Source: Betaproteobacteria bacterium (GTDB taxonomy: Bacteria > Pseudomonadota > Gammaproteobacteria > Burkholderiales > Usitatibacteraceae). From it: a DNA stretch of 10,266 nucleotides. Numbering within the stretch: position 1 is the first letter of the stretch; the number at the start of each line of letters is the position of its first letter. Under the pieces are notes generated by a model that searched no databases, was not told where the DNA came from, and was given only the letters and a program-made list of their open reading frames with translations. The DNA is taken from the NCBI GenBank assembly GCA_012274175.1, contig JAAOZZ010000218.1:1-10266 (forward strand), written 5' to 3'. The position numbers and the translations under genes were made by a program. Shown here in pieces: positions 1,890 to 10,266 of this stretch.

Positions 1890-2462
1890 CTAATGATGGT
1901 CGCTCTCGGCTGCCGGCTCGATCTTCTCGGCGCCGCGATACCACTTCGGATAGTAGCGGGCCACCACCGCCTGGGTGGCGTCCAGCGCGTGGCAGCGGTC
2001 GATCTGGAAGGGCCTGCGCTCCGGGTCCTGCACGCGCTGGCCGGCCATGGTCTGGAACGCCGCCGTGGCGAGCGCTCCCGCGAGCTCGGTCACGTGGGTG
2101 CAGCCGCGCACGCCGGCGAAAAGCTCCTTCAGCTTCTGGTGGTACCCGGGACGGATCGCGAGACCCACGAGCTTCTTGTAGGCCGGCACGATCCCGTCGC
2201 AGTGGCCCACGTAGGGCATGGCGTCCATCGCGGCCGCGGCGTCCACGATCATGAGCTTGCGATCCACCGTGATGCGAAGCCACATGCCGTGGATCGCCTC
2301 TCCCGCGGGGCGCACGCCCGCGGCGAGCGGGAAATCGTAGGGCTTCGTGTCGACGAGGTGGCCCTCGATGTCGTACAGGCCGTCCTCGCGCCGGTATCCC
2401 CGGATCTCGATCGCGCGCCGGTGCAGCGGCTCGCGCGCGACCGTGGGCTCAAGCCCGGGCAT
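1890..2462 (-). CDS. DUF2889 family protein
   Basis: A 190-residue soluble protein of the DUF2889 family, whose biochemical function is unknown to me. The family signature is clear: REPLHRR at 10-16, RGYRREDGLYDIEGHLVDTK at 21-40, HGMWLRI at 58-64, GHC at 86-88, GCTH at 120-123 and DRCHAL at 155-160. No signal peptide or membrane segment is visible. The recurring His and Cys residues (H58, H87, C88, C121, H123, C157, H158) could form a metal site; that is inference. The ATG at 2462 lies inside the end of the kinase gene, giving a 14-bp overlap, so translation is probably coupled to the kinase; no strong Shine-Dalgarno sequence is visible. In other betaproteobacteria this family sits just before sucC, as here, so the position may reflect conserved synteny rather than a signalling role. 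Confidence 0.88.
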   Translation of the reverse strand: MPGLEPTVAREPLHRRAIEIRGYRREDGLYDIEGHLVDTKPYDFPLAAGVRPAGEAIHGMWLRITVDRKLMIVDAAAAMDAMPYVGHCDGIVPAYKKLVGLAIRPGYHQKLKELFAGVRGCTHVTELAGALATAAFQTMAGQRVQDPERRPFQIDRCHALDATQAVVARYYPKWYRGAEKIEPAAESDHH

Positions 2463-5064
2463 CGGCCGGCGCGGGAACCGTTCCCGTCTTGCGCGCCTGG
2501 CGGATCGCCTCGGCGAACTCGGCCCCGGTCTGGAAGCGCTTCTCGTAGTCCTTGGCGAGTGCGCGGTCGATGAGGGCGTCGATCCACGGGGGCAGCGCCG
2601 CGTTGAAATCGCGGATCGCCGGGTGCGGGTTGTTGGCGATGGCGAACATGAGCTGCGTCATCGACTCGCCCTCGAACGGCAGGCGCCCCGAGAGCATCTG
2701 GAAGAGGGTCACGCCCAGGGAGAAGAGGTCGCTCCTGCCGTCGATCTTCTTGCCGCCCAGCTGCTCCGGGGACATGTACGAAGGCGTGCCCAGCACCATG
2801 CCGGTCTTGGTCCGGGACGAGTCGGTGATGCGCGCGATGCCGAAGTCGGTGACCTTTACCGTGTCGCTTTCCGGCTCGTACATGATGTTCGCCGGCTTGA
2901 TGTCGCGGTGCACGATGCCCATGGTGTGCGCGTAGCCCAGCGCGTCGGCCACGCGCTCTACGATGTAGAGCACCTTGTCGGGCGGCAGCAGGTTGGGCTG
3001 CTTCGTGTACGGCACGAGGTCCTTGCCCTTCAGGAACTCCATGGCGATGTAGCACAGGTCGTGCTCCTCGCCCGCGTCGTAGATGGTGACGATGTTGGGA
3101 TGCGCGAGCCGGCCCGCGGTCTCCGCCTCGCGGAAGAAGCGCTCCTTCGCCTCCTTCAGCTCCTCGGCCTCGAACTCCTCGGAAAGCGCCATGGTCTTGA
3201 TCGCGACCACGCGGCCGATCTTCGGGTCCTTGCCGCCGTACACCACGCCCATGGCGCCCTTGCCCAGCTCCTTCTCCACCTGGTAGCGGCCGAGCATCGG
3301 CTTTTCCTGGGCCCCGCCCTGCAGGATCATCGTGCCCGCGTTGGTCCGCGCCCCCGCGGAGCCGCCGAGGATGATGGTCTCGGAGAGCTGCTTGGCGCGG
3401 TTCAACCGCTCCTCGATGTCGCGGAACTTCGGGTTGTAGGTGGCCATGTAGCGGAAGCAGCTCTCCGCCTTGTTGAACTGGCGGCGGCGCTCGAAGTCCA
3501 GGGCGAGGTTGTAGAGGTTCTCAATCACCTCGTCGTTCAGCGGCGCCTTGCGGAACTTGTCGAACGCCATGTCGAGCTGGCCCTGCTGCTGGAACGCGAG
3601 GCCCAGCATGCGGTTGGATTCCGCGCTCTCGGTGTCGGCCTTCTCCTTGCCGCGCTCGGCCACCAGGTAGTGCTTGGTGGTGAGCAGCGCGTGTCCCACC
3701 AGGAGCAGCGTGGCCGGCAGCATGAGCTGGATCCACAGCCCCGCGCCCGTCATGAGCGCGAGATGGGTGCCGAAGAGCGCCACGAAGATCGCCACGGTGA
3801 GTGCGGCGCCCATGCCCGCCTTCAATCGCGGCAGCAGCAGGATGATGTACAGCGCCACCGCGAGGTACGCGCCGAGGGTGGCGAGCGGGCCCCACGTGGG
3901 AGCGACGAAGAAATGCTCCTGCAGGATCGAGGACACCGAGTGCGCGAGCGTCGTGACCGGGTTCATCTGCGCGGAGATGGGGGTGACCTGGCTCGTGCCG
4001 ATCCCCGCCGCGGTGGCGCCGATCAGCACGATCTTGTCGGTGTATTTCGACGCCGGGATCTTGCCGCTGTAGACGTCGTAGAACGAATCGATCGGGAAGG
4101 CGGGACGCCCGTCGCGGTCCTTGTAGAAGTACGTGTACATCTGCCCGAACTCGTCGGTGCGGATGGTCTTGCCGCCGACGGACACGCTCTCGCCCAGGTT
4201 CGCCTTGATGTCCTTGGCGGTGAGGTTCAGGCTCTTGGCGGCGATCATGAGGGCGAGCGACGGGAACTGCTGGCCGTAGTAGTCGATCACCAGCGGCTCG
4301 AAGCGGATGGCGCCGTCCTCGTCGAGGCTGCTGTTGAGGTGGCCCACGCCGGCCACCACGCTGCCGATCTGCTCGATGGGCACCAGCGCCCCGATGCCGT
4401 GCAGGAAGGATCCACCCGCGTCGGTGAAGCCGCCGATGGTGTCCTTCACCACATACTCCGGCAGCGGCTTGTCGGGCTTGCCCTCGGGCGGGCGATAGGA
4501 GAGCTGCTCGAAGGCGAGCGGGACCACGACGTTGCCTGCCTTCTTGATGCTCGCCGCGAGCCGCACGTCGCTGTTGAGCGCGACGGAGGCCTCGGAGAGG
4601 ATCTTGCCGATCTCCGCCACCTCGCCGCTCGGCTGCACGCCCTGGGCGCCCGGCGTGGCGCCCCCGATGGGAGACACGCCGGGAACGTCCTGGGTGGCGG
4701 GGGGATAGGCCTTGTTGTAGATGTCGAGCATCTTGTCGACGTAGACCAGGCCCGGGTCCTTCTGCGGCTCGAAGAAGAACACCGTGTTGCCGATCACCTT
4801 CGCCTTGGCCGCGGCAAGCTCGTCGATCAGCTTCGCGTGCACCTCGCGCGGCCACGGCCAGCGGCCGATGTTGGCGATCGACTGCTCGTCGATGGCGATG
4901 ACGGCGATCTTGTCGCTCGGCGTCTTCGAGGTGGCCTTGACCCCCAGGTCGTAGGCCCAGCGCTCGAGCCCGGGGATGAAGCCGGAGACCCGCGCGAAGC
5001 CGAACAGGACGATCGCGATGACGAGGCCGAAAAACCAATCGGCCTTCCAGAAGGCGGTCTTCAT
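2449..5064 (-). CDS. CHASE2-domain transmembrane Ser/Thr protein kinase with TPR-like linker
   Basis: An 871-residue membrane receptor kinase. Order: one N-terminal membrane helix (about 10-28); an extracytoplasmic CHASE2 sensor domain (about 35-375) with the typical VIAIDEQSIANIGRWPWPRE at 55-74; three membrane helices (about 393-411, 418-436, 440-460); a cytoplasmic linker with two TPR-like helix pairs (about 485-560); and a Hanks-type kinase domain (about 594-852). All catalytic elements are present: glycine loop GKGAMG 601-606, ATP lysine K623 in VVAIK, helix-C E646, HRDIKPAN 719-726, DFG 740-742, GTPSYMSPE 759-767 and D779 in GRSDLFSLG. The start at 5064 is preceded by AGGGGA six bases upstream and leads directly into the first helix. 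The CHASE2 ligand is unknown. It presumably phosphorylates cytoplasmic Ser/Thr targets. No phosphatase or FHA partner lies alongside; the gene overlaps DUF2889 downstream by 14 bp. Confidence 0.95.
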   Translation of the reverse strand: MKTAFWKADWFFGLVIAIVLFGFARVSGFIPGLERWAYDLGVKATSKTPSDKIAVIAIDEQSIANIGRWPWPREVHAKLIDELAAAKAKVIGNTVFFFEPQKDPGLVYVDKMLDIYNKAYPPATQDVPGVSPIGGATPGAQGVQPSGEVAEIGKILSEASVALNSDVRLAASIKKAGNVVVPLAFEQLSYRPPEGKPDKPLPEYVVKDTIGGFTDAGGSFLHGIGALVPIEQIGSVVAGVGHLNSSLDEDGAIRFEPLVIDYYGQQFPSLALMIAAKSLNLTAKDIKANLGESVSVGGKTIRTDEFGQMYTYFYKDRDGRPAFPIDSFYDVYSGKIPASKYTDKIVLIGATAAGIGTSQVTPISAQMNPVTTLAHSVSSILQEHFFVAPTWGPLATLGAYLAVALYIILLLPRLKAGMGAALTVAIFVALFGTHLALMTGAGLWIQLMLPATLLLVGHALLTTKHYLVAERGKEKADTESAESNRMLGLAFQQQGQLDMAFDKFRKAPLNDEVIENLYNLALDFERRRQFNKAESCFRYMATYNPKFRDIEERLNRAKQLSETIILGGSAGARTNAGTMILQGGAQEKPMLGRYQVEKELGKGAMGVVYGGKDPKIGRVVAIKTMALSEEFEAEELKEAKERFFREAETAGRLAHPNIVTIYDAGEEHDLCYIAMEFLKGKDLVPYTKQPNLLPPDKVLYIVERVADALGYAHTMGIVHRDIKPANIMYEPESDTVKVTDFGIARITDSSRTKTGMVLGTPSYMSPEQLGGKKIDGRSDLFSLGVTLFQMLSGRLPFEGESMTQLMFAIANNPHPAIRDFNAALPPWIDALIDRALAKDYEKRFQTGAEFAEAIRQARKTGTVPAPADARA

Positions 5065-5116
5065 GAATTCTCCCCTGATCCTCGTGGCTCGGAGCTCCCG
5101 ACCCCGGCTCGAAGAC

Positions 5117-5145
5117 GGCATTCCAATGCCCCCATCTTACATGGG
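5117..5145. repeat. Two adjacent short inverted repeats upstream of the kinase gene
   Basis: The 94-bp gap between the ornithine-cyclodeaminase-like stop and the kinase ATG holds two abutting dyads: GGCATTCCAATGCC at 5117-5130 (6-bp arms, 2-bp centre) and CCCAT-CTTAC-ATGGG at 5131-5145 (5-bp arms). They lie 53-81 bp ahead of the kinase start. They could be an operator or weak hairpins; no T run follows on the minus strand, so a canonical terminator is not indicated. I see no convincing -35/-10 pair here. Confidence 0.35.
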
Positions 5146-5158
5146 CGTGACCCGGCGT

Positions 5159-6118
5159 TCACCCTCCCAGGTCGACCGCCGTGCCCCGGTTGCCCTGGCG
5201 TGCCAGCTCGAGCAGCTTCGCGGCGATGATGAGGTCCTGCATCGCCATTCCCTGGGATTCGAACAGGGTGACCTGGCCCGCGGAAGTGCGCCCCGGGCGG
5301 ATCCCCGCGATCACCTCGCCCAGCTCCGTGAGTCCCCCCGCGTGGATGCGGCCCTTCTCGAGGGCGGGCAGCAGGTCGCCGGCTTCCTTGATGGCCGAAG
5401 GGCGGGAATCGACCACGATGGGATCGCACTTGCGCACCGTCGCCTCGTCGATCTCCTGGCGCAGCAGCGAGTTGGAGCCGGCGGCGTTCACGTGCGTGCC
5501 CGGCGCGATCCATTCGCCGTCGAAGACCGGCGTGGCCGAGGTGGTGATGGTCACCACGATGTCGCTGCCTTTGACCGCGTCCTCGGCGCTCGCAGCGGGC
5601 ACGACCGGGATCCCGAGCTTGCCTCCCATGCGCTCGCAGAACTTCGCGACCTTGGCGGCGGTGCGCGAGTACACCTTCACCCGTTCAAGCTTGCGCACCG
5701 CCGCGAGCGCCTCGAGCTGCCCCTGGGCCTGCCACCCGGAGCCGAAGATCCCGGCCACCTTCGCGTCGGGACGCGCGAGCCATCGGGCCGCGACCCCGCC
5801 GGCGGCCCCGGTGCGCATCATGCCGAGGCGATTCGCCTCCACGATGCCTTCGAGGCTGCCGCGCTCGGCGCTGAACACGTACACGAGGAAGCGCACGCCT
5901 TCGCGGCTCGACGTATAGGCCTTGTAGCCGAACACTCCCGCCGACGGCACGGCGCCCTGCAGGATGTGCAGCGCCGCCTTCGGCAGCCGCGTGCGCTCCC
6001 GCGGCACGTCGATGGCCTGCCCGGTCGAATACTCCCGATGCACGCGCTCGACGAGCTCGATGGTGGTGGACATCGTGAGCAGTTGCTCGACGTCGGCTTC
6101 GCGCAGGAGGAGTGCCAT
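5159..6118 (-). CDS. Ornithine cyclodeaminase/mu-crystallin family NAD(P)-binding protein
   Basis: A 319-residue protein of the ornithine cyclodeaminase/mu-crystallin superfamily, whose members include ornithine cyclodeaminase, archaeal alanine dehydrogenase, ketimine or pyrroline-2-carboxylate reductases and siderophore-precursor enzymes. Visible: K66 in GYKAYTS and R102 in MRTGAAG, the usual substrate-contacting residues; Rossmann motif GIFGSGWQAQ at 123-132; SDIVVTITTSATPVF at 185-199; and NAAGSNSLLRQEID at 211-224. In true ornithine cyclodeaminase, the segment matching 211-224 carries a catalytic Asp after the glycine; here the aligned residue is N216, so a reductase or dehydrogenase acting on small imino/keto acids is more likely. 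Start at 6118 gives the normal N-terminus and family length; the Shine-Dalgarno sequence (GGGA) is weak. It lies alone between the DUF1269 gene and the kinase. The substrate cannot be read from the sequence. Confidence 0.9.
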   Translation of the reverse strand: MALLLREADVEQLLTMSTTIELVERVHREYSTGQAIDVPRERTRLPKAALHILQGAVPSAGVFGYKAYTSSREGVRFLVYVFSAERGSLEGIVEANRLGMMRTGAAGGVAARWLARPDAKVAGIFGSGWQAQGQLEALAAVRKLERVKVYSRTAAKVAKFCERMGGKLGIPVVPAASAEDAVKGSDIVVTITTSATPVFDGEWIAPGTHVNAAGSNSLLRQEIDEATVRKCDPIVVDSRPSAIKEAGDLLPALEKGRIHAGGLTELGEVIAGIRPGRTSAGQVTLFESQGMAMQDLIIAAKLLELARQGNRGTAVDLGG

Positions 6119-6160: not shown

Positions 6161-6201
6161 GAACCCAAAAAGGGGTCTGTCCCGATTTTTCGAAATCAGG
6201 G
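6161..6201 (-). terminator. Terminator-like hairpin, possibly a dispersed palindromic repeat
   Basis: The minus-strand transcript reads CCC-U-GAUUU-CGAA-AAAUC-GGG from 6201 to 6181, an 8-bp stem with one bulged U and a four-base loop. Then come ACAGACCCC and five Ts at 6171-6167, followed by GGGTTCCCG. The alternating GGG and CCC blocks allow several further small hairpins. The stem contains the DUF1269 stop codon. The string GGGACAGACCCC followed by a T run resembles short palindromic elements I recall scattered between genes in many proteobacteria. It may therefore be a repeat that also works as a terminator; only a genome-wide count can tell. The T run is 9 bases from the main stem, which is not ideal for intrinsic termination. 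Confidence 0.42.
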
Positions 6202-6708
6202 GAAAGCGGGCACCGTCGGCTCGTTGCCGCGATCCATGGCCTCGGGGTGGGTGCGGGCGATGACGGCGCGCACCTCCTCGTGGCGGCCCGCCGGCACGTC
6301 GAGCATGAGCAGGATCCTGCCCTCCTCGAGGTCGCGCTCGAAGCTCTTCAGCCGCGAATTGGGCACCTGCAGGCCCACCATGGTCGAGATCCACGCGCCC
6401 AGCACGGCACCCACGATCGCCGCGACGAGCACCGCGCCCAGCTCCATCGTGAGCCCCTGGGGCGGGTAGTTCACGAGCACGGTGCCCACCAGCGCGCCCA
6501 TCACCCCGCCCAGCACGAGGCCCACGAAGGCCGCGTGCACCGCGTCGGTCTTGTGAACGTACGTGGCCTGGTGCAGCGCTCCCAGGTCGGTGCCTCGGCG
6601 CGCGAGGAAATGCATGTGGCGGTCCTCGATGCGGGCGAGCAACAGGTCGTCGGAAAGACGGCGCGCGCTCGGGAGGTCCGGGAGTGTGACGTACATCCTG
6701 CGCTTCAT
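6196..6708 (-). CDS. DUF1269-type two-helix inner-membrane protein
   Basis: A 170-residue membrane protein resembling the DUF1269 family (poorly characterised, often annotated as stress-related membrane proteins). Layout: basic soluble N-terminus MKRRMYVTLPDLPSARRLSD with a short alpha/beta region to about residue 55; a glycine-rich first membrane helix at about 59-79; a short loop NYPPQGLTM; a second glycine/alanine-rich helix at about 89-112; and a cytoplasmic tail with FERDLEEGRILLMLDVPAGR that looks like a small ligand-binding or ACT-like fold (inference). The two helices with GxxxG-like spacing suggest tight helix packing or oligomerisation. Start choice is firm: AAGGAGG sits five bases before the ATG. 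The leader carries a hairpin over that site and a promoter-like sequence further up, so this gene probably has its own expression control, separate from the oxalate cluster 138 bp upstream. Confidence 0.85.
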   Translation of the reverse strand: MKRRMYVTLPDLPSARRLSDDLLLARIEDRHMHFLARRGTDLGALHQATYVHKTDAVHAAFVGLVLGGVMGALVGTVLVNYPPQGLTMELGAVLVAAIVGAVLGAWISTMVGLQVPNSRLKSFERDLEEGRILLMLDVPAGRHEEVRAVIARTHPEAMDRGNEPTVPAFP

Positions 6709-6846: not shown

Positions 6847-7824
6847 CTACGGAACGAGGATGGTCGAGCCCGTGGTCTTGCGCGCCTCGAGGTCGCGGTG
6901 CGCCTGCACGGCGTCCTTCAGCGCGTAGCTCTGGCGCGGCGCCACCTTGATGCGCCCGGCGAGCACGTGCTCGAAGAGCTCGCCGGCGGCGGCCACCAGC
7001 TCCGCGCGCTTGCCGACGTAGCTCATCAGGGTGGGGCGGGTCACGTAGAGCGAGCCCTTGGCCGAGAGGATGCCCAGGTCCGTGGGCCCGACGGCGCCCG
7101 AGGAGTTGCCGAAGCTCACCATGAGGCCGCGTCCCTGCAGGCAGTCGAGGGACTTCATGAAGGTGTCCTTGCCCACGGAATCGTAGACGATCGGCACTTT
7201 CTTCCCGCCGGTGACCTCGTTCACCTTCGCCACGAAGTCTTCCTTCGTGTAGATCACCGTGTGGGCGCAGCCGTTGTCGCGCGCGAGCTTCGCCTTCTCC
7301 TGGGAGCTCACGGTGCCGATGATGTTCACGCCGATCGCTTTCGCCCACTGGCAGGCGATGAGGCCCACGCCGCCCGCGGCGGCATGCCACAGCACCGTGT
7401 CGCCCGCCTTCGGCACGACGTGCAGGCGGCGCAGCAGGTACTGCACCGTGAGGCCCTGCAGCATCATGCTCGCGGCCTGCTCGAAGCCGATGCCGTCGGG
7501 CACCTTCACGCAGCGCTCGGCCGGATGGACCTTCTTCTCGGCGTAGGCGCCGATGGGCCCGTTGCAATAGGCCACGCGATCGCCCACCTTGAATTCCGTG
7601 ACGCCGGCGCCCACCGCCTCGACCACGCCCGCGGCCTCGAGGCCGATCCCCGAGGGCAGCGGCAGGGGATACAGGCCCGTGCGATGGTAGGTGTCGATGT
7701 AGTTGAGGCCGATCGCCTTGTGCGCGATGCGCACCTCGCCCGCGCCGGGCTCGCCCACGGCCACGTCCTCCCATTGCAGGACTTCGGGACCGCCGGTCTT
7801 GTGGAAACGGATCGCGTGCGCCAT
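6847..7824 (-). CDS. qor: NADPH:quinone oxidoreductase-like medium-chain dehydrogenase
   Basis: A 325-residue zinc-free medium-chain dehydrogenase/reductase of the quinone oxidoreductase (QOR/zeta-crystallin) group, close to the 327 residues of E. coli Qor. Visible: N-terminal catalytic fold with GGPEVLQWEDVAVGEPGAGE at 11-30, GIGLEAAGVVEAVGAGV at 59-75 and GDRVAYC at 81-87; the NADPH-binding AAAGGVGLIACQWAKAIG at 148-165; and PIVYDSVGKDTF at 211-222. The catalytic and structural zinc-ligand pattern of alcohol dehydrogenases is absent. The start at 7824 is supported by GAGGAGG five bases before the ATG; that site overlaps the stop codon of the upstream formyltransferase, ten bases away, so the two are surely co-transcribed. 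The family reduces quinones or activated enones/aldehydes with NADPH; its true substrate, and whether it takes part in oxalate or formyl metabolism, is unknown. Confidence 0.9.
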   Translation of the reverse strand: MAHAIRFHKTGGPEVLQWEDVAVGEPGAGEVRIAHKAIGLNYIDTYHRTGLYPLPLPSGIGLEAAGVVEAVGAGVTEFKVGDRVAYCNGPIGAYAEKKVHPAERCVKVPDGIGFEQAASMMLQGLTVQYLLRRLHVVPKAGDTVLWHAAAGGVGLIACQWAKAIGVNIIGTVSSQEKAKLARDNGCAHTVIYTKEDFVAKVNEVTGGKKVPIVYDSVGKDTFMKSLDCLQGRGLMVSFGNSSGAVGPTDLGILSAKGSLYVTRPTLMSYVGKRAELVAAAGELFEHVLAGRIKVAPRQSYALKDAVQAHRDLEARKTTGSTILVP

Positions 7825-7834
7825 GGATACCTCC

Positions 7835-8767
7835 TCAGGAGCCCAGGATTGTACCTGCCGCCACACCCGCGTCCCGGGCCCACTGCGCGGCGGAAACCTT
7901 CTTGCCTTCCTCCGGCTTCACTTTCGACACCTCGACCTGCCCGCCCTGGGCGGTGATGCGGATCGACTCGGCGCCCACCTCCGTGATCTCGCCGATCTTG
8001 CCCTTGACCGCACCGAAGGTACGCACCAGGTGCTTCTTCGAGCCGAAGAGCTGCAGCTTCCTGCCGCCGATCGTGGTCCACGCGCCCGGCGCCGGGTCGC
8101 AGCCGCGGATCGTGTCGTGGATGAAGTCCACGTGGTTGTGCCAATGGACCCGCGCCTCGTTGGCGCGGCACCATCCTTCGTAGGACGCTTTCGACTCGTC
8201 CTGCACGACCTCCCGGTGCTTGCCGGCGACCACGAGGTCCGCCGCCTCGAGCATCGCCTGCACGCCCATGGGAAAGAGCCGATCGAAGTAGACGGTCCCC
8301 AGGGTGTCGTTCTCGGAGATGGGCGTCTCCTTCTGCAGCACCACCGGGCCCTCGTCGAGGCCGTCGGTGGGACGGAAGATGGAGAGGCCCGTCTTCGCCT
8401 CGCCCTTGATGAGGGGCCAGTTGATCGACGATGGGCCGCGATACTTCGGAAGGAGCGACGGGTGGTACTGGATCGTGCCGTGCTTCGGGATGTTCACGAA
8501 TTCCTGGGGCGCGAACTGCAGCACGAAGGCCATGATGCCGATGTCGGCGCCGAGGTCCTTCATCGCCTGGGCCGCCTCGGGGCTCTTGAGCGACGGGAAC
8601 TGGAAGACCTGGAGGCCCTTTTCCTGCGCCGCGGATTTCATCGGGTCGGCTTTGGCGCCTTCCTTTTCCGGGGCGACGAATACTCCCGCCACCGTGTCGC
8701 CGCGCGCGAGGAACGCCTCGAGGACCGCTTTTCCGAAGTCCTGCTGGCCGATGATGGCGATCTTCAT
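7835..8767 (-). CDS. Stand-alone formyltransferase resembling the 10-formyltetrahydrofolate hydrolase domain of ALDH1L1
   Basis: A 310-residue formyltransferase. The N-terminal Rossmann-like catalytic domain (1 to about 203) starts MKIAIIGQQDFG and carries YHPSLLPKYRGPSSINW at 101-117 and FRPTDGLDEGPVVLQKE at 131-147. H102 and D138 match the catalytic His/Asp pair of this superfamily, 36 residues apart. A C-terminal OB-like domain follows (about 205-308), with YEGWCRANEARVHW and GAWTTIGGRKLQLF. The match to the N-terminal domain of animal ALDH1L1 (about 310 residues) is stronger than to methionyl-tRNA formyltransferase: the Asn of the usual NxH motif is Q100, and the IYHPSLLP..RG..SINW stretch is ALDH1L1-like. 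The ATG overlaps the frc stop by one base (TGATG). Expected substrates are 10-formyl-THF and water (giving formate and THF); transfer between formyl-CoA and THF is a hypothesis from context. Confidence 0.9.
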   Translation of the reverse strand: MKIAIIGQQDFGKAVLEAFLARGDTVAGVFVAPEKEGAKADPMKSAAQEKGLQVFQFPSLKSPEAAQAMKDLGADIGIMAFVLQFAPQEFVNIPKHGTIQYHPSLLPKYRGPSSINWPLIKGEAKTGLSIFRPTDGLDEGPVVLQKETPISENDTLGTVYFDRLFPMGVQAMLEAADLVVAGKHREVVQDESKASYEGWCRANEARVHWHNHVDFIHDTIRGCDPAPGAWTTIGGRKLQLFGSKKHLVRTFGAVKGKIGEITEVGAESIRITAQGGQVEVSKVKPEEGKKVSAAQWARDAGVAAGTILGS

Positions 8768-10041
8768 CAGGCGGCGACCTTCTTCGGAGGAGCGGAGAAG
8801 GCGCCGGCGCCCTTGAGCTGCTGGATCTTCGCCTCGTCGTAGCCCAGCACGCTCTTCAGGACCTCCTCGGTGTGCTCGCCCAGGGTGGGGCTCCGCTCGA
8901 TTTTCGCGGGCGACGCGGAGAGCTTGATCGGCATGCCGACGTTGAACCACTTGCCGCGCTGCGGGTGGTCCAGCTCGACCCACATGTCGCGGCCGCGCAC
9001 GTGCTCGTCGGTGGCGAGGTCCTGGGTCGACATGATCGGGCCGCAGGGCACGTCGAGCGGATTGAGTATCCCCATCAGCTCGCGCTTGGTGTACTTCTCG
9101 GCGAACTTGTTGAGCAGCGTCCAGACGAGCGACTGGTTCTTGCGCCGCTCCACGATGGACGCCACGCGCGGGTCGTTCGCGAGCTCCGGCATCCCGACGT
9201 CGGGACCGATCCGGTTGGCGAGCGCGGTCCACACCGCCTCCTGCACCACCACGTAGAGCCAGTCGTTGGCGCCGTGGGGCTTGCAGTGGATCGCGTTGCC
9301 GAGCTGGCCCCCGCCGGAATCGTTGCCCGCGCGCGGCACGTCCCCCATGCCCTGGTAGGTGGGCACCGAGTACTCGGCGAGCGACTGGCGCGTGAGGCGC
9401 TGGTGGTCGCGGAACTTCACGCGGCAGAGGTTCATCACGCCGTCCATCATCGCGACCTCGACGTACTGGCCCTCGCCCGTGCGGTTGGCCTGGTGCAGCG
9501 CGGCGAGCAGCCCGATGGCCAGGTGCAGGCCGGTGCCCGTGTCGCCGATCTGCGCGCCGGTCACGAAGGGCGCGCCCTCCGGAACGCCGGTGGTGCTCAT
9601 GGCGCCGCCCATCGCCTGGGCCACGTTCTCGTAGGCCTTGAAGTCCGAATACGGGCCCGAGGAGCCGAAGCCCTTGATCGAGCCCACGACGATCCTGGGG
9701 TTGATCTCGTGGATCTTGTCCCAGGTGAAGCCGAGGCGCTCGAGCACGCCCGGGCCGAAGTTCTCCATCATGATGTCGCACTTCTTCAGCAGGTCCACGA
9801 ACACCTGCTTGCCCTCGGCGCTCTTCATGTTGACCGTGATCGAGCGCTTGTTGCAGTTGAGCATGGTGAAATAGAGCGAGTCGGCGTTGGGGACGTCACG
9901 CAGCTGCCCGCGCGTGGCGTCTCCCTGCGGCGGCTCGAACTTGATCACGTCCGCGCCCATCCACGCGAGCAGCTGCGAGCACGTCGGCCCCGCTTGGACA
10001 TGGGTCATATCCAGGATTCGTACGCCCTTCAGTGCTTCCAT
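8767..10041 (-). CDS. frc: Formyl-CoA:oxalate CoA-transferase
   Basis: Class III CoA-transferase that moves CoA from formyl-CoA to oxalate, giving oxalyl-CoA and formate; it is the partner of oxalyl-CoA decarboxylase in anaerobic or acid-linked oxalate breakdown (cytoplasm, interlocked dimer). The 424 residues (Oxalobacter Frc has 428) show DMTHVQAGP at 11-19 with Q16, SLYFTMLNCNKRSI at 55-68, MENFGPGVLERLGF at 92-105, catalytic D167 in IGDTGTGLH, glycine loop SGGGQ at 242-246, VPCGPIMS at 331-338 and LGEHTEEVL at 387-395. The position of Oxalobacter Trp48 is Q46 here, as I recall for E. coli YfdW. Start at 10041 gives the family N-terminus (MEALKGVRILDMTH) with GGAG eight bases upstream; a longer TTG-initiated frame from 10104 is unlikely. 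The neighbouring oxc fragment supports true Frc rather than another family-III transferase. Confidence 0.95.
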   Translation of the reverse strand: MEALKGVRILDMTHVQAGPTCSQLLAWMGADVIKFEPPQGDATRGQLRDVPNADSLYFTMLNCNKRSITVNMKSAEGKQVFVDLLKKCDIMMENFGPGVLERLGFTWDKIHEINPRIVVGSIKGFGSSGPYSDFKAYENVAQAMGGAMSTTGVPEGAPFVTGAQIGDTGTGLHLAIGLLAALHQANRTGEGQYVEVAMMDGVMNLCRVKFRDHQRLTRQSLAEYSVPTYQGMGDVPRAGNDSGGGQLGNAIHCKPHGANDWLYVVVQEAVWTALANRIGPDVGMPELANDPRVASIVERRKNQSLVWTLLNKFAEKYTKRELMGILNPLDVPCGPIMSTQDLATDEHVRGRDMWVELDHPQRGKWFNVGMPIKLSASPAKIERSPTLGEHTEEVLKSVLGYDEAKIQQLKGAGAFSAPPKKVAA

Positions 10042-10074
10042 TTTCCGGTCTCCGTTGGCTAGGCTGCTCGAGGA

Positions 10075-10105
10075 GTTGAGCGGCGACGAAGTCGTCCGCT
10101 CCAAC
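10075..10105 (-). other. Strong hairpin between oxc and frc
   Basis: On the minus strand GTT-g-GAGCGG-a-CGAC-TTC-GTCG-CCGCTC-AAC forms 13 base pairs with two single-base bulges and a three-base loop (10105-10075). It ends 33 bp before the frc ATG. No T run follows, so it is not a canonical terminator; an mRNA-processing, stability or attenuation element in the 98-bp oxc-frc gap is plausible. The remainder of that gap shows nothing I recognise. Confidence 0.5.
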
Positions 10106-10139
10106 GATCGCCCCGATGTGTCTTACCGCGCGCTCGTCT

Positions 10140-10266
10140 TTACTTCTTTTTTACTGTCGGGTTCAGGCTCGTGATGCGCCCGCTTTCCGTGCCGGCGTTC
10201 TCGTCGATCACGGCGTTGACGAGCGTGGGCCTGCGCGAGCGGATCGCCTCTTCCATCGCCTTGCGC
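10140..10266 (-). CDS. oxc: Oxalyl-CoA decarboxylase, partial (only the C-terminal 41 codons in the window)
   Basis: Thiamine-diphosphate enzyme that decarboxylates oxalyl-CoA to formyl-CoA and CO2. Too short to appear as a full ORF, but the minus strand from 10265 reads 41 codons: RKAMEEAIRSRRPTLVNAVI, then DENAGTESGRITSLNPTVKKK and stop TAA at 10142-10140. The tail A.ESGRI.SLNP with a lysine-rich end is diagnostic for Oxc (E. coli and Oxalobacter enzymes end similarly). The rest, including the ThDP and ADP sites, lies beyond base 10266. It is followed by frc after 98 bp on the same strand, the classic oxalate-degradation pair. Confidence 0.88.
   Translation of the reverse strand, partial: RKAMEEAIRSRRPTLVNAVIDENAGTESGRITSLNPTVKKK

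Follow-up and report, generated by a model that had tools for sequence, protein, structure and literature searches.

A putative stand-alone formyl-CoA:tetrahydrofolate formyltransferase encoded beside formyl-CoA enzymes in Burkholderiales

The window analyzed here, i.e., the stretch of DNA covering positions 1-10266 of contig C315 from a Burkholderiales genome, carries an oxalate operon in which oxc (oxalyl-CoA decarboxylase), frc (formyl-CoA transferase) and a third gene, here termed fft, follow each other in that order on the minus strand. The oxc gene is cut by the contig end; its 3' end (10140..10266, minus strand, stop codon TAA) corresponds to positions 531-569 of the 574-position oxalyl-CoA decarboxylase model (E 1.8e-11). 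The complete frc (8767..10041, minus strand) encodes a CoA_transf_3 protein of 424 aa that scored above both NCBIfam cut-offs for formyl-CoA transferase (564.9 vs 442 bits and 549.7 vs 504.2 bits). Because oxc and frc are adjacent on one strand, the locus was classified as an oxc-frc oxalate operon, with frc complete and oxc represented by its 3' end at the contig edge. The fft gene (7835..8767, minus strand) encodes 310 aa, with Formyl_trans_N at residues 1-166 and Formyl_trans_C at residues 202-298, and we propose that its product is a formyl-CoA:tetrahydrofolate (THF) formyltransferase. At the frc/fft junction (GCCTGATGAAGA) the frc stop codon TGA and the fft start codon ATG have one base in common (TGATG). 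This gene order and overlap, together with a stand-alone 310-residue product having H102 and D138 intact, had been reported in the initial annotation and were borne out.

The fft product exceeded the Pfam gathering scores of both domains (PF00551, 108 bits against a cut-off of 26.1; PF02911, 59.8 bits against 21.1). Its best PDB matches were the hydrolase domains of ALDH1L1 (FDH) (E 2.9e-61), and the predicted structure (AF2 pLDDT 92.9) likewise had an FDH hydrolase as top Foldseek match (E 1.8e-35, 36% identity). The catalytic residues H102 (codon 8462..8464, minus strand) and D138 (codon 8354..8356, minus strand) are present. S104 (codon 8456..8458, minus strand), the third member of the FDH-type His-Ser-Asp triad (PMC6802093), is present as well, and each of the three is the consensus at 1.00 among 147 unique family sequences.

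What sets fft apart is the position two residues ahead of the catalytic His. The window has Gln there (Q100, codon 8468..8470, minus strand); among the 29 fft rows of the tree 26 have Gln and three distant ones Cys, whereas rat and zebrafish FDH have Ile, and Fmt and ArnA have Asn. The Asn is replaced in FDH and HypX too. In our own reading of the alignment the Ile may serve as a mark of the FDH family, and fft lacks it. Moreover, A80, V82 and K13 of fft take the place of P, C and Q in FDH, and the chain consists of the two formyltransferase domains alone, with neither the carrier and ALDH domains of full-length FDH nor the enoyl-CoA hydratase-like domain of HypX. The earlier description of fft as ALDH1L1-like thus holds for its nearest solved relatives, but fft is not simply an ALDH1L1 domain.

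We surveyed 399 genomes of the order, calling fft at E <= 1e-50 (57-100% identity) and oxc at E <= 1e-130. The fft gene was found in 79 genomes and oxc in 74; 65 had both, 14 fft alone, 9 oxc alone and 311 neither. Hence oxc occurred in 65/79 genomes with fft compared to 9/320 without it (Fisher p 1.7e-50, kinship ignored). All 79 fft loci (the window and 6 + 72 further stretches) were searched for frc and oxc by tblastn, accepting matches of >= 45% identity. In 73 of them, the window included, frc was located directly upstream of fft on the same strand at less than 300 bp, and these loci were spread over 11 of 12 family codes (at least one genome each). Two more had frc upstream after an insertion of 1.4-3.2 kb (G423 and G521), so that frc is a partner in 75/79 loci. 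Three loci (G315, G359, and G501) had fft between oxlT and oxc, with oxc directly downstream. Either frc or oxc lay within 3.3 kb of fft in 78/79 loci, G594 being the sole locus with neither found near fft. The fetched flanks, many of which end at contig ends, contained oxc in 55/79 loci: upstream on the same strand in 43, upstream on the opposite strand in nine (all of family f217) and downstream in three. An overlapping set of 80 named fft loci gave a similar picture, with frc directly upstream at less than 300 bp in 68. Five of the other 12 had less than 100 bp of upstream sequence; frc was 1.4 kb away in L006 and 5.5-6.3 kb away in L055 and L057, only oxc was found in L058, and neither in L053, L074, and L080. 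The association of the subfamily with these genes thus goes beyond chance.

Some loci deviated in their details. In G304, whose closed genome of 1.7 Mb gave no match to formate-THF ligase, oxc and fft are separated by a tandem pair of formyl-CoA transferase genes (L122:7295-9946), each of which scored above the NCBIfam cut-off. G315 (L159:1870-11825) has a run of open reading frames (ORFs) that look by eye like formate dehydrogenase subunits, followed by oxlT, fft, and oxc; this stretch gave no frc match. A fusion of Frc and Fft was considered for long frames of 735-739 aa in G542, G543, and G482 and was rejected, as read-through was found in none of 145 frc/fft pairs, a mix of two overlapping samples. 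If the first fft codon matched is taken as the start, stop and start codons overlapped in 24 of these pairs.

Among the 120 matches listed (of 8000 scored; P0005-P0123) all rows named by their source were called methionyl-tRNA formyltransferase. This label appears to be a misannotation, and we rejected the identification of fft as the housekeeping enzyme of that name. Although fft shares the two-domain architecture of Fmt, it lacks the Fmt Asn motif and scored 149.8 bits against the TIGR00460 cut-off of 201.5, and its own genome encodes separate homologues (L082 and L083) that group with Fmt and with ArnA. The fold and length equal to those of Fmt and ArnA might also fit an enzyme that formylates some other acceptor, such as an amine or a sugar, and is placed in the operon for formyl supply; most neighbor clusters in 89 loci had no assigned identity, leaving room for an acceptor pathway nearby. 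We consider this very unlikely, given the Gln or Cys in place of the Asn, the separate Fmt-like and ArnA-like homologues, and the near-constant partnership with frc.

Outside the order, samples of 274 genomes of the class and 299 of the phylum yielded two and three further genomes with fft, and the sole match in 72,556 plasmid records was the Paracoccaceae plasmid pLA6_002. We read all six loci, in which fft was 40-55% identical. In five of them frc was directly upstream of fft, and in four fhs, the gene for formate-THF ligase, adjoined it. The order was oxc-frc-fft in L206 and L207, oxc-frc-fft-fhs on the plasmid, whose annotation names fft a Met-tRNA formyltransferase, and frc-fft-fhs preceded by a gene resembling 2-hydroxyacyl-CoA lyase (HACL) in L119 and L120. 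In the sixth (L208:2270-4942, genome G921) the order was fhs-fft, with no frc or oxc match in the fetched 12 kb; formate-THF ligase can thus be the sole visible partner of fft. The plasmid block (L199, CP031587.1 65036-83950) contains ppc, sucCD-like genes, oxc, frc, fft, fhs, tctBA, a ketopantoate reductase gene and glyA, and from its gene content looks like a portable island for oxalate and one-carbon assimilation. A serine cycle, suggested by the nearby ppc, sucCD-like genes, and glyA, stays a hint, as the sucC-like gene fell below the malate-CoA ligase cut-off.

Formyl-CoA is the product common to oxalyl-CoA decarboxylase and 2-hydroxyacyl-CoA lyase. Of the 14 genomes of the order with fft and no oxc call, 11 had a different thiamine diphosphate (ThDP) enzyme in the oxc slot, on the same strand and approximately 1.3-1.7 kb upstream of fft. 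The remaining three were the window genome (oxc cut), G374 (cut 1.4 kb upstream), and G561 (neither enzyme near). The ThDP enzyme was also present in 7/80 named loci; copies lie upstream of frc-fft at L166:6067-7740, L078:6020-7726, and L119:9670-11337. The best PDB matches of two copies were 2-hydroxyacyl-CoA lyases (E 5e-71 and 4e-83), the nearest solved relative being AcHACL (E 3.6e-83), while the L078 and L166 copies scored 336.3 and 375.7 bits, below the 600 bits of the HACL model NF058623. In an alignment of three copies, the C-terminal GTESGR-type segment known from OXC is missing, and the site that is DYEEMDQ in OXC reads LQDLPH or LQELRH; AcHACL has LQDIPH at this site. The Glu taken as the catalytic Glu493 of AcHACL (presumed numbering) aligns with Arg in L166. 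By these comparisons the enzyme family is closest to 2-hydroxyacyl-CoA lyase and is a putative further maker of formyl-CoA. Because it fills the oxc slot in 11/14 fft-positive genomes without oxc, fft is tied to formyl-CoA rather than to oxalate as such.

We also analyzed the folate context. Fhs was found in 65/79 genomes with fft and in 90/320 other genomes of the order. Among genomes with oxc it was present in 57/65 with fft compared to 1/9 without (Fisher p 7e-6, kinship ignored). In loci of the order, the fetched flanks contained fhs in just 14/79 cases, at no less than 3.0 kb from fft. At the level of genomic association there is good support for a folate branch, which the initial annotation had assigned to oxalate use, but its link is formyl-CoA and not oxalate itself.

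PurU was tested at its curated cut-off in 58 of the 79 fft-positive genomes, of which 44 had Fhs only, seven PurU only, one both and six neither. These numbers bear on the possibility that fft is a 10-formyl-THF hydrolase, similar to PurU or to the isolated FDH domain, which would release formate and THF. The nearest solved relative is indeed named a hydrolase domain, and 50 of the 58 genomes had no PurU over the cut-off. However, Fhs is present in 44 of these 50 genomes, where it would form a futile, ATP-wasting cycle with a hydrolase, and the coexistence of PurU with fft in the other eight, seven of them without Fhs, means that fft is not simply a PurU substitute. The two proteins share the Formyl_trans_N core, but fft scored only 18.9 bits against the PurU model TIGR00655 (cut-off 285.95). 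Hydrolysis by isolated FDH in vitro depends on non-physiological thiols at high concentrations, according to the part of the source covered (PMC8748788). Since hydrolysis also leaves the linkage to formyl-CoA enzymes unexplained, we consider this activity improbable.

Another proposal, a formyl-CoA thioesterase freeing CoA once oxalate is exhausted, would agree with fft adjoining frc and oxc. It is the least probable of the activities considered: fft has retained the folate-transformylase fold, its residues A80, V82, F85, and P87, in a segment that we aligned by eye to the pterin-binding loop of HypX, are nearly invariant, and a folate-independent hydrolase does not explain the co-occurrence with fhs or its adjacency to fft in 4/6 loci outside the order.

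From gene order, conservation, predicted fold, catalytic residues, and partner enzymes we infer the substrate, the reaction and its direction. We favor, with a probability of roughly 55%, that fft encodes a stand-alone, thiol-directed folate formyltransferase catalyzing formyl-CoA + THF <-> 10-formyl-THF + CoA with net flow to folate, because the exchange combines FDH/HypX-type chemistry with a placement beside formyl-CoA enzymes. In this scheme, Oxc or the HACL-like lyase would produce formyl-CoA and Frc would recycle it on the next acid. The fft enzyme, its chemistry freed from carrier and decarbonylase, would link the pools of formyl-CoA and of folate-bound one-carbon units without spending ATP, alongside Fhs, which spends ATP to join formate to the latter pool. 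If FDH and HypX are a guide, D138 would act as the base for the CoA thiol, with H102 and S104 orienting it; in the favored direction N10 of THF would attack the formyl thioester at the H102/D138 site. Of the three reactions offered in the initial annotation, this exchange between CoA and THF fits best, and hydrolysis of either 10-formyl-THF or formyl-CoA is less likely.

Phosphopantetheine is the arm of CoA too, and two known systems offer precedents for transfer between folate and such a thiol. The N-terminal domain of ALDH1L1 (PDB 4qpd, 1s3i, and 7rlt), which shares with fft the fold, the His-Ser-Asp triad and 36-39% identity in structural alignments, passes the formyl group from 10-formyl-THF to the 4'-phosphopantetheine thiol of its carrier (PMC8748788, in the part covered), and fft may have a parallel activity. 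While the FDH domain acts on a carrier in its own chain, the genomic setting of fft is free formyl-CoA. Free CoA is also the thiol partner of the HypX (HoxX) N-terminal domain (PDB 6j0p, 6j1f, and 6j1j), of the same superfamily. HypX is only approximately 20% identical to fft, has Gly in place of the triad Ser, and carries in the same chain an enoyl-CoA hydratase-like domain whose decarbonylation of formyl-CoA serves [NiFe] hydrogenase. The sections covered of its structural study describe a His/Asp/Asp network and propose, by analogy with FDH and without direct experiment, that formyl moves from 10-formyl-THF to CoA (PMC6802093); a review, in the part covered, reports that transfer to CoA was later shown (PMC12134894). 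The initial annotation knew of no described enzyme for the exchange. Outside HypX we recognized no formyl-CoA:THF formyltransferase in the open-access literature, as far as its texts were covered, subscription journals lying mostly beyond that scope; HypX and the ALDH1L1 domain are nevertheless precedents, and what seems undescribed so far is a dedicated stand-alone enzyme for this step.

The main weakness of the assimilation reading is stoichiometric. The Frc/Oxc cycle gives no surplus formyl-CoA, and steady withdrawal to folate needs another CoA donor. This is also the main support for the reverse of the same exchange, in which 10-formyl-THF + CoA would give formyl-CoA for priming or refilling the Frc/Oxc or Frc/lyase cycle, and for which the objection falls away. 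Such a cycle requires formyl-CoA to start and loses it by hydrolysis; fft with Fhs would then amount to a two-step, ATP-dependent formyl-CoA synthetase, which agrees with fhs adjoining fft outside the order. The reverse is also the direction of HypX (PMC6802093; PMC12134894), and one study, in the part covered, gives formyl-CoA a half-life of 1.9 h in quenched assay mixtures and proposes a separate primer for Escherichia coli, acetyl-CoA:oxalate CoA-transferase (PMC3720670). That enzyme (YfdE/UctC) would resemble fft in its possible role but belongs to an unrelated family with unrelated chemistry. However, in one genus (f202/g255) six genomes of 1.7-2.1 Mb, five of which consist of a single contig, contain oxc, fft, and PurU but gave no Fhs match. 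Formyl-CoA is a more energy-rich donor than 10-formyl-THF, and the equilibrium should therefore favor 10-formyl-THF. We regard priming as possible but rather unlikely and give somewhat more weight to net flow toward 10-formyl-THF, i.e., one-carbon assimilation, than to the reverse. Genomes without Fhs were rejected as proof of assimilation: they number 14/79 with fft, several are drafts, and 7 of the 13 tested have PurU; they are only suggestive.

Downstream of fft in the window, a gene for an NADPH:quinone reductase-like protein (6847..7824, minus strand) begins after 10 bp and is possibly co-transcribed with fft, although a relative was clustered in just 12/89 fft loci. A CHASE2-protein kinase is encoded farther downstream (2449-5121, by Pfam), and ORFs judged by eye to resemble such kinases form a cluster that recurs downstream of fft in 37 of 89 loci, while clusters likewise resembling a phosphatase and an FHA protein do so in 47 and 27 loci. 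An ornithine cyclodeaminase/mu-crystallin-family gene (5159-6118), a weakly DUF1269-like ORF (6196-6708), and an ORF without NCBIfam match (1890-2462), located between the operon and sucC, are as far as seen unrelated to the operon. The sucC gene of the window fits an ordinary succinyl-CoA ligase.

Oxalate breakdown is given as Frc, Oxc, and formate dehydrogenase (PMC9476978); the same route is given in a second paper, which does not use the word "formyltransferase" anywhere in its main text (PMC12927642). The fates of formyl-CoA named in the literature, in the parts covered, are CoA transfer, hydrolysis, condensation, reduction in engineered routes, and decarbonylation by HypX. It is conceivable, though we hold it doubtful, that fft and Fhs form a reversible energy module carried by folate, in which fft makes 10-formyl-THF and Fhs running in reverse converts it, with ADP and Pi, to formate, THF, and ATP. 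The thioester energy of formyl-CoA made by Oxc or by a new lyase family would then be saved as ATP, the pair run backward would charge CoA with formate, and fft would be the missing natural bridge from formyl-CoA to folate one-carbon metabolism. Formyl-CoA is also an intermediate of synthetic one-carbon pathways. If the favored exchange is correct, fft would let formyl groups enter serine and purine synthesis without ATP, hint at where oxalotrophs place carbon that is not burnt to CO2, correct the Met-tRNA formyltransferase label of the family, and offer a part for synthetic assimilation of formate and formyl-CoA.

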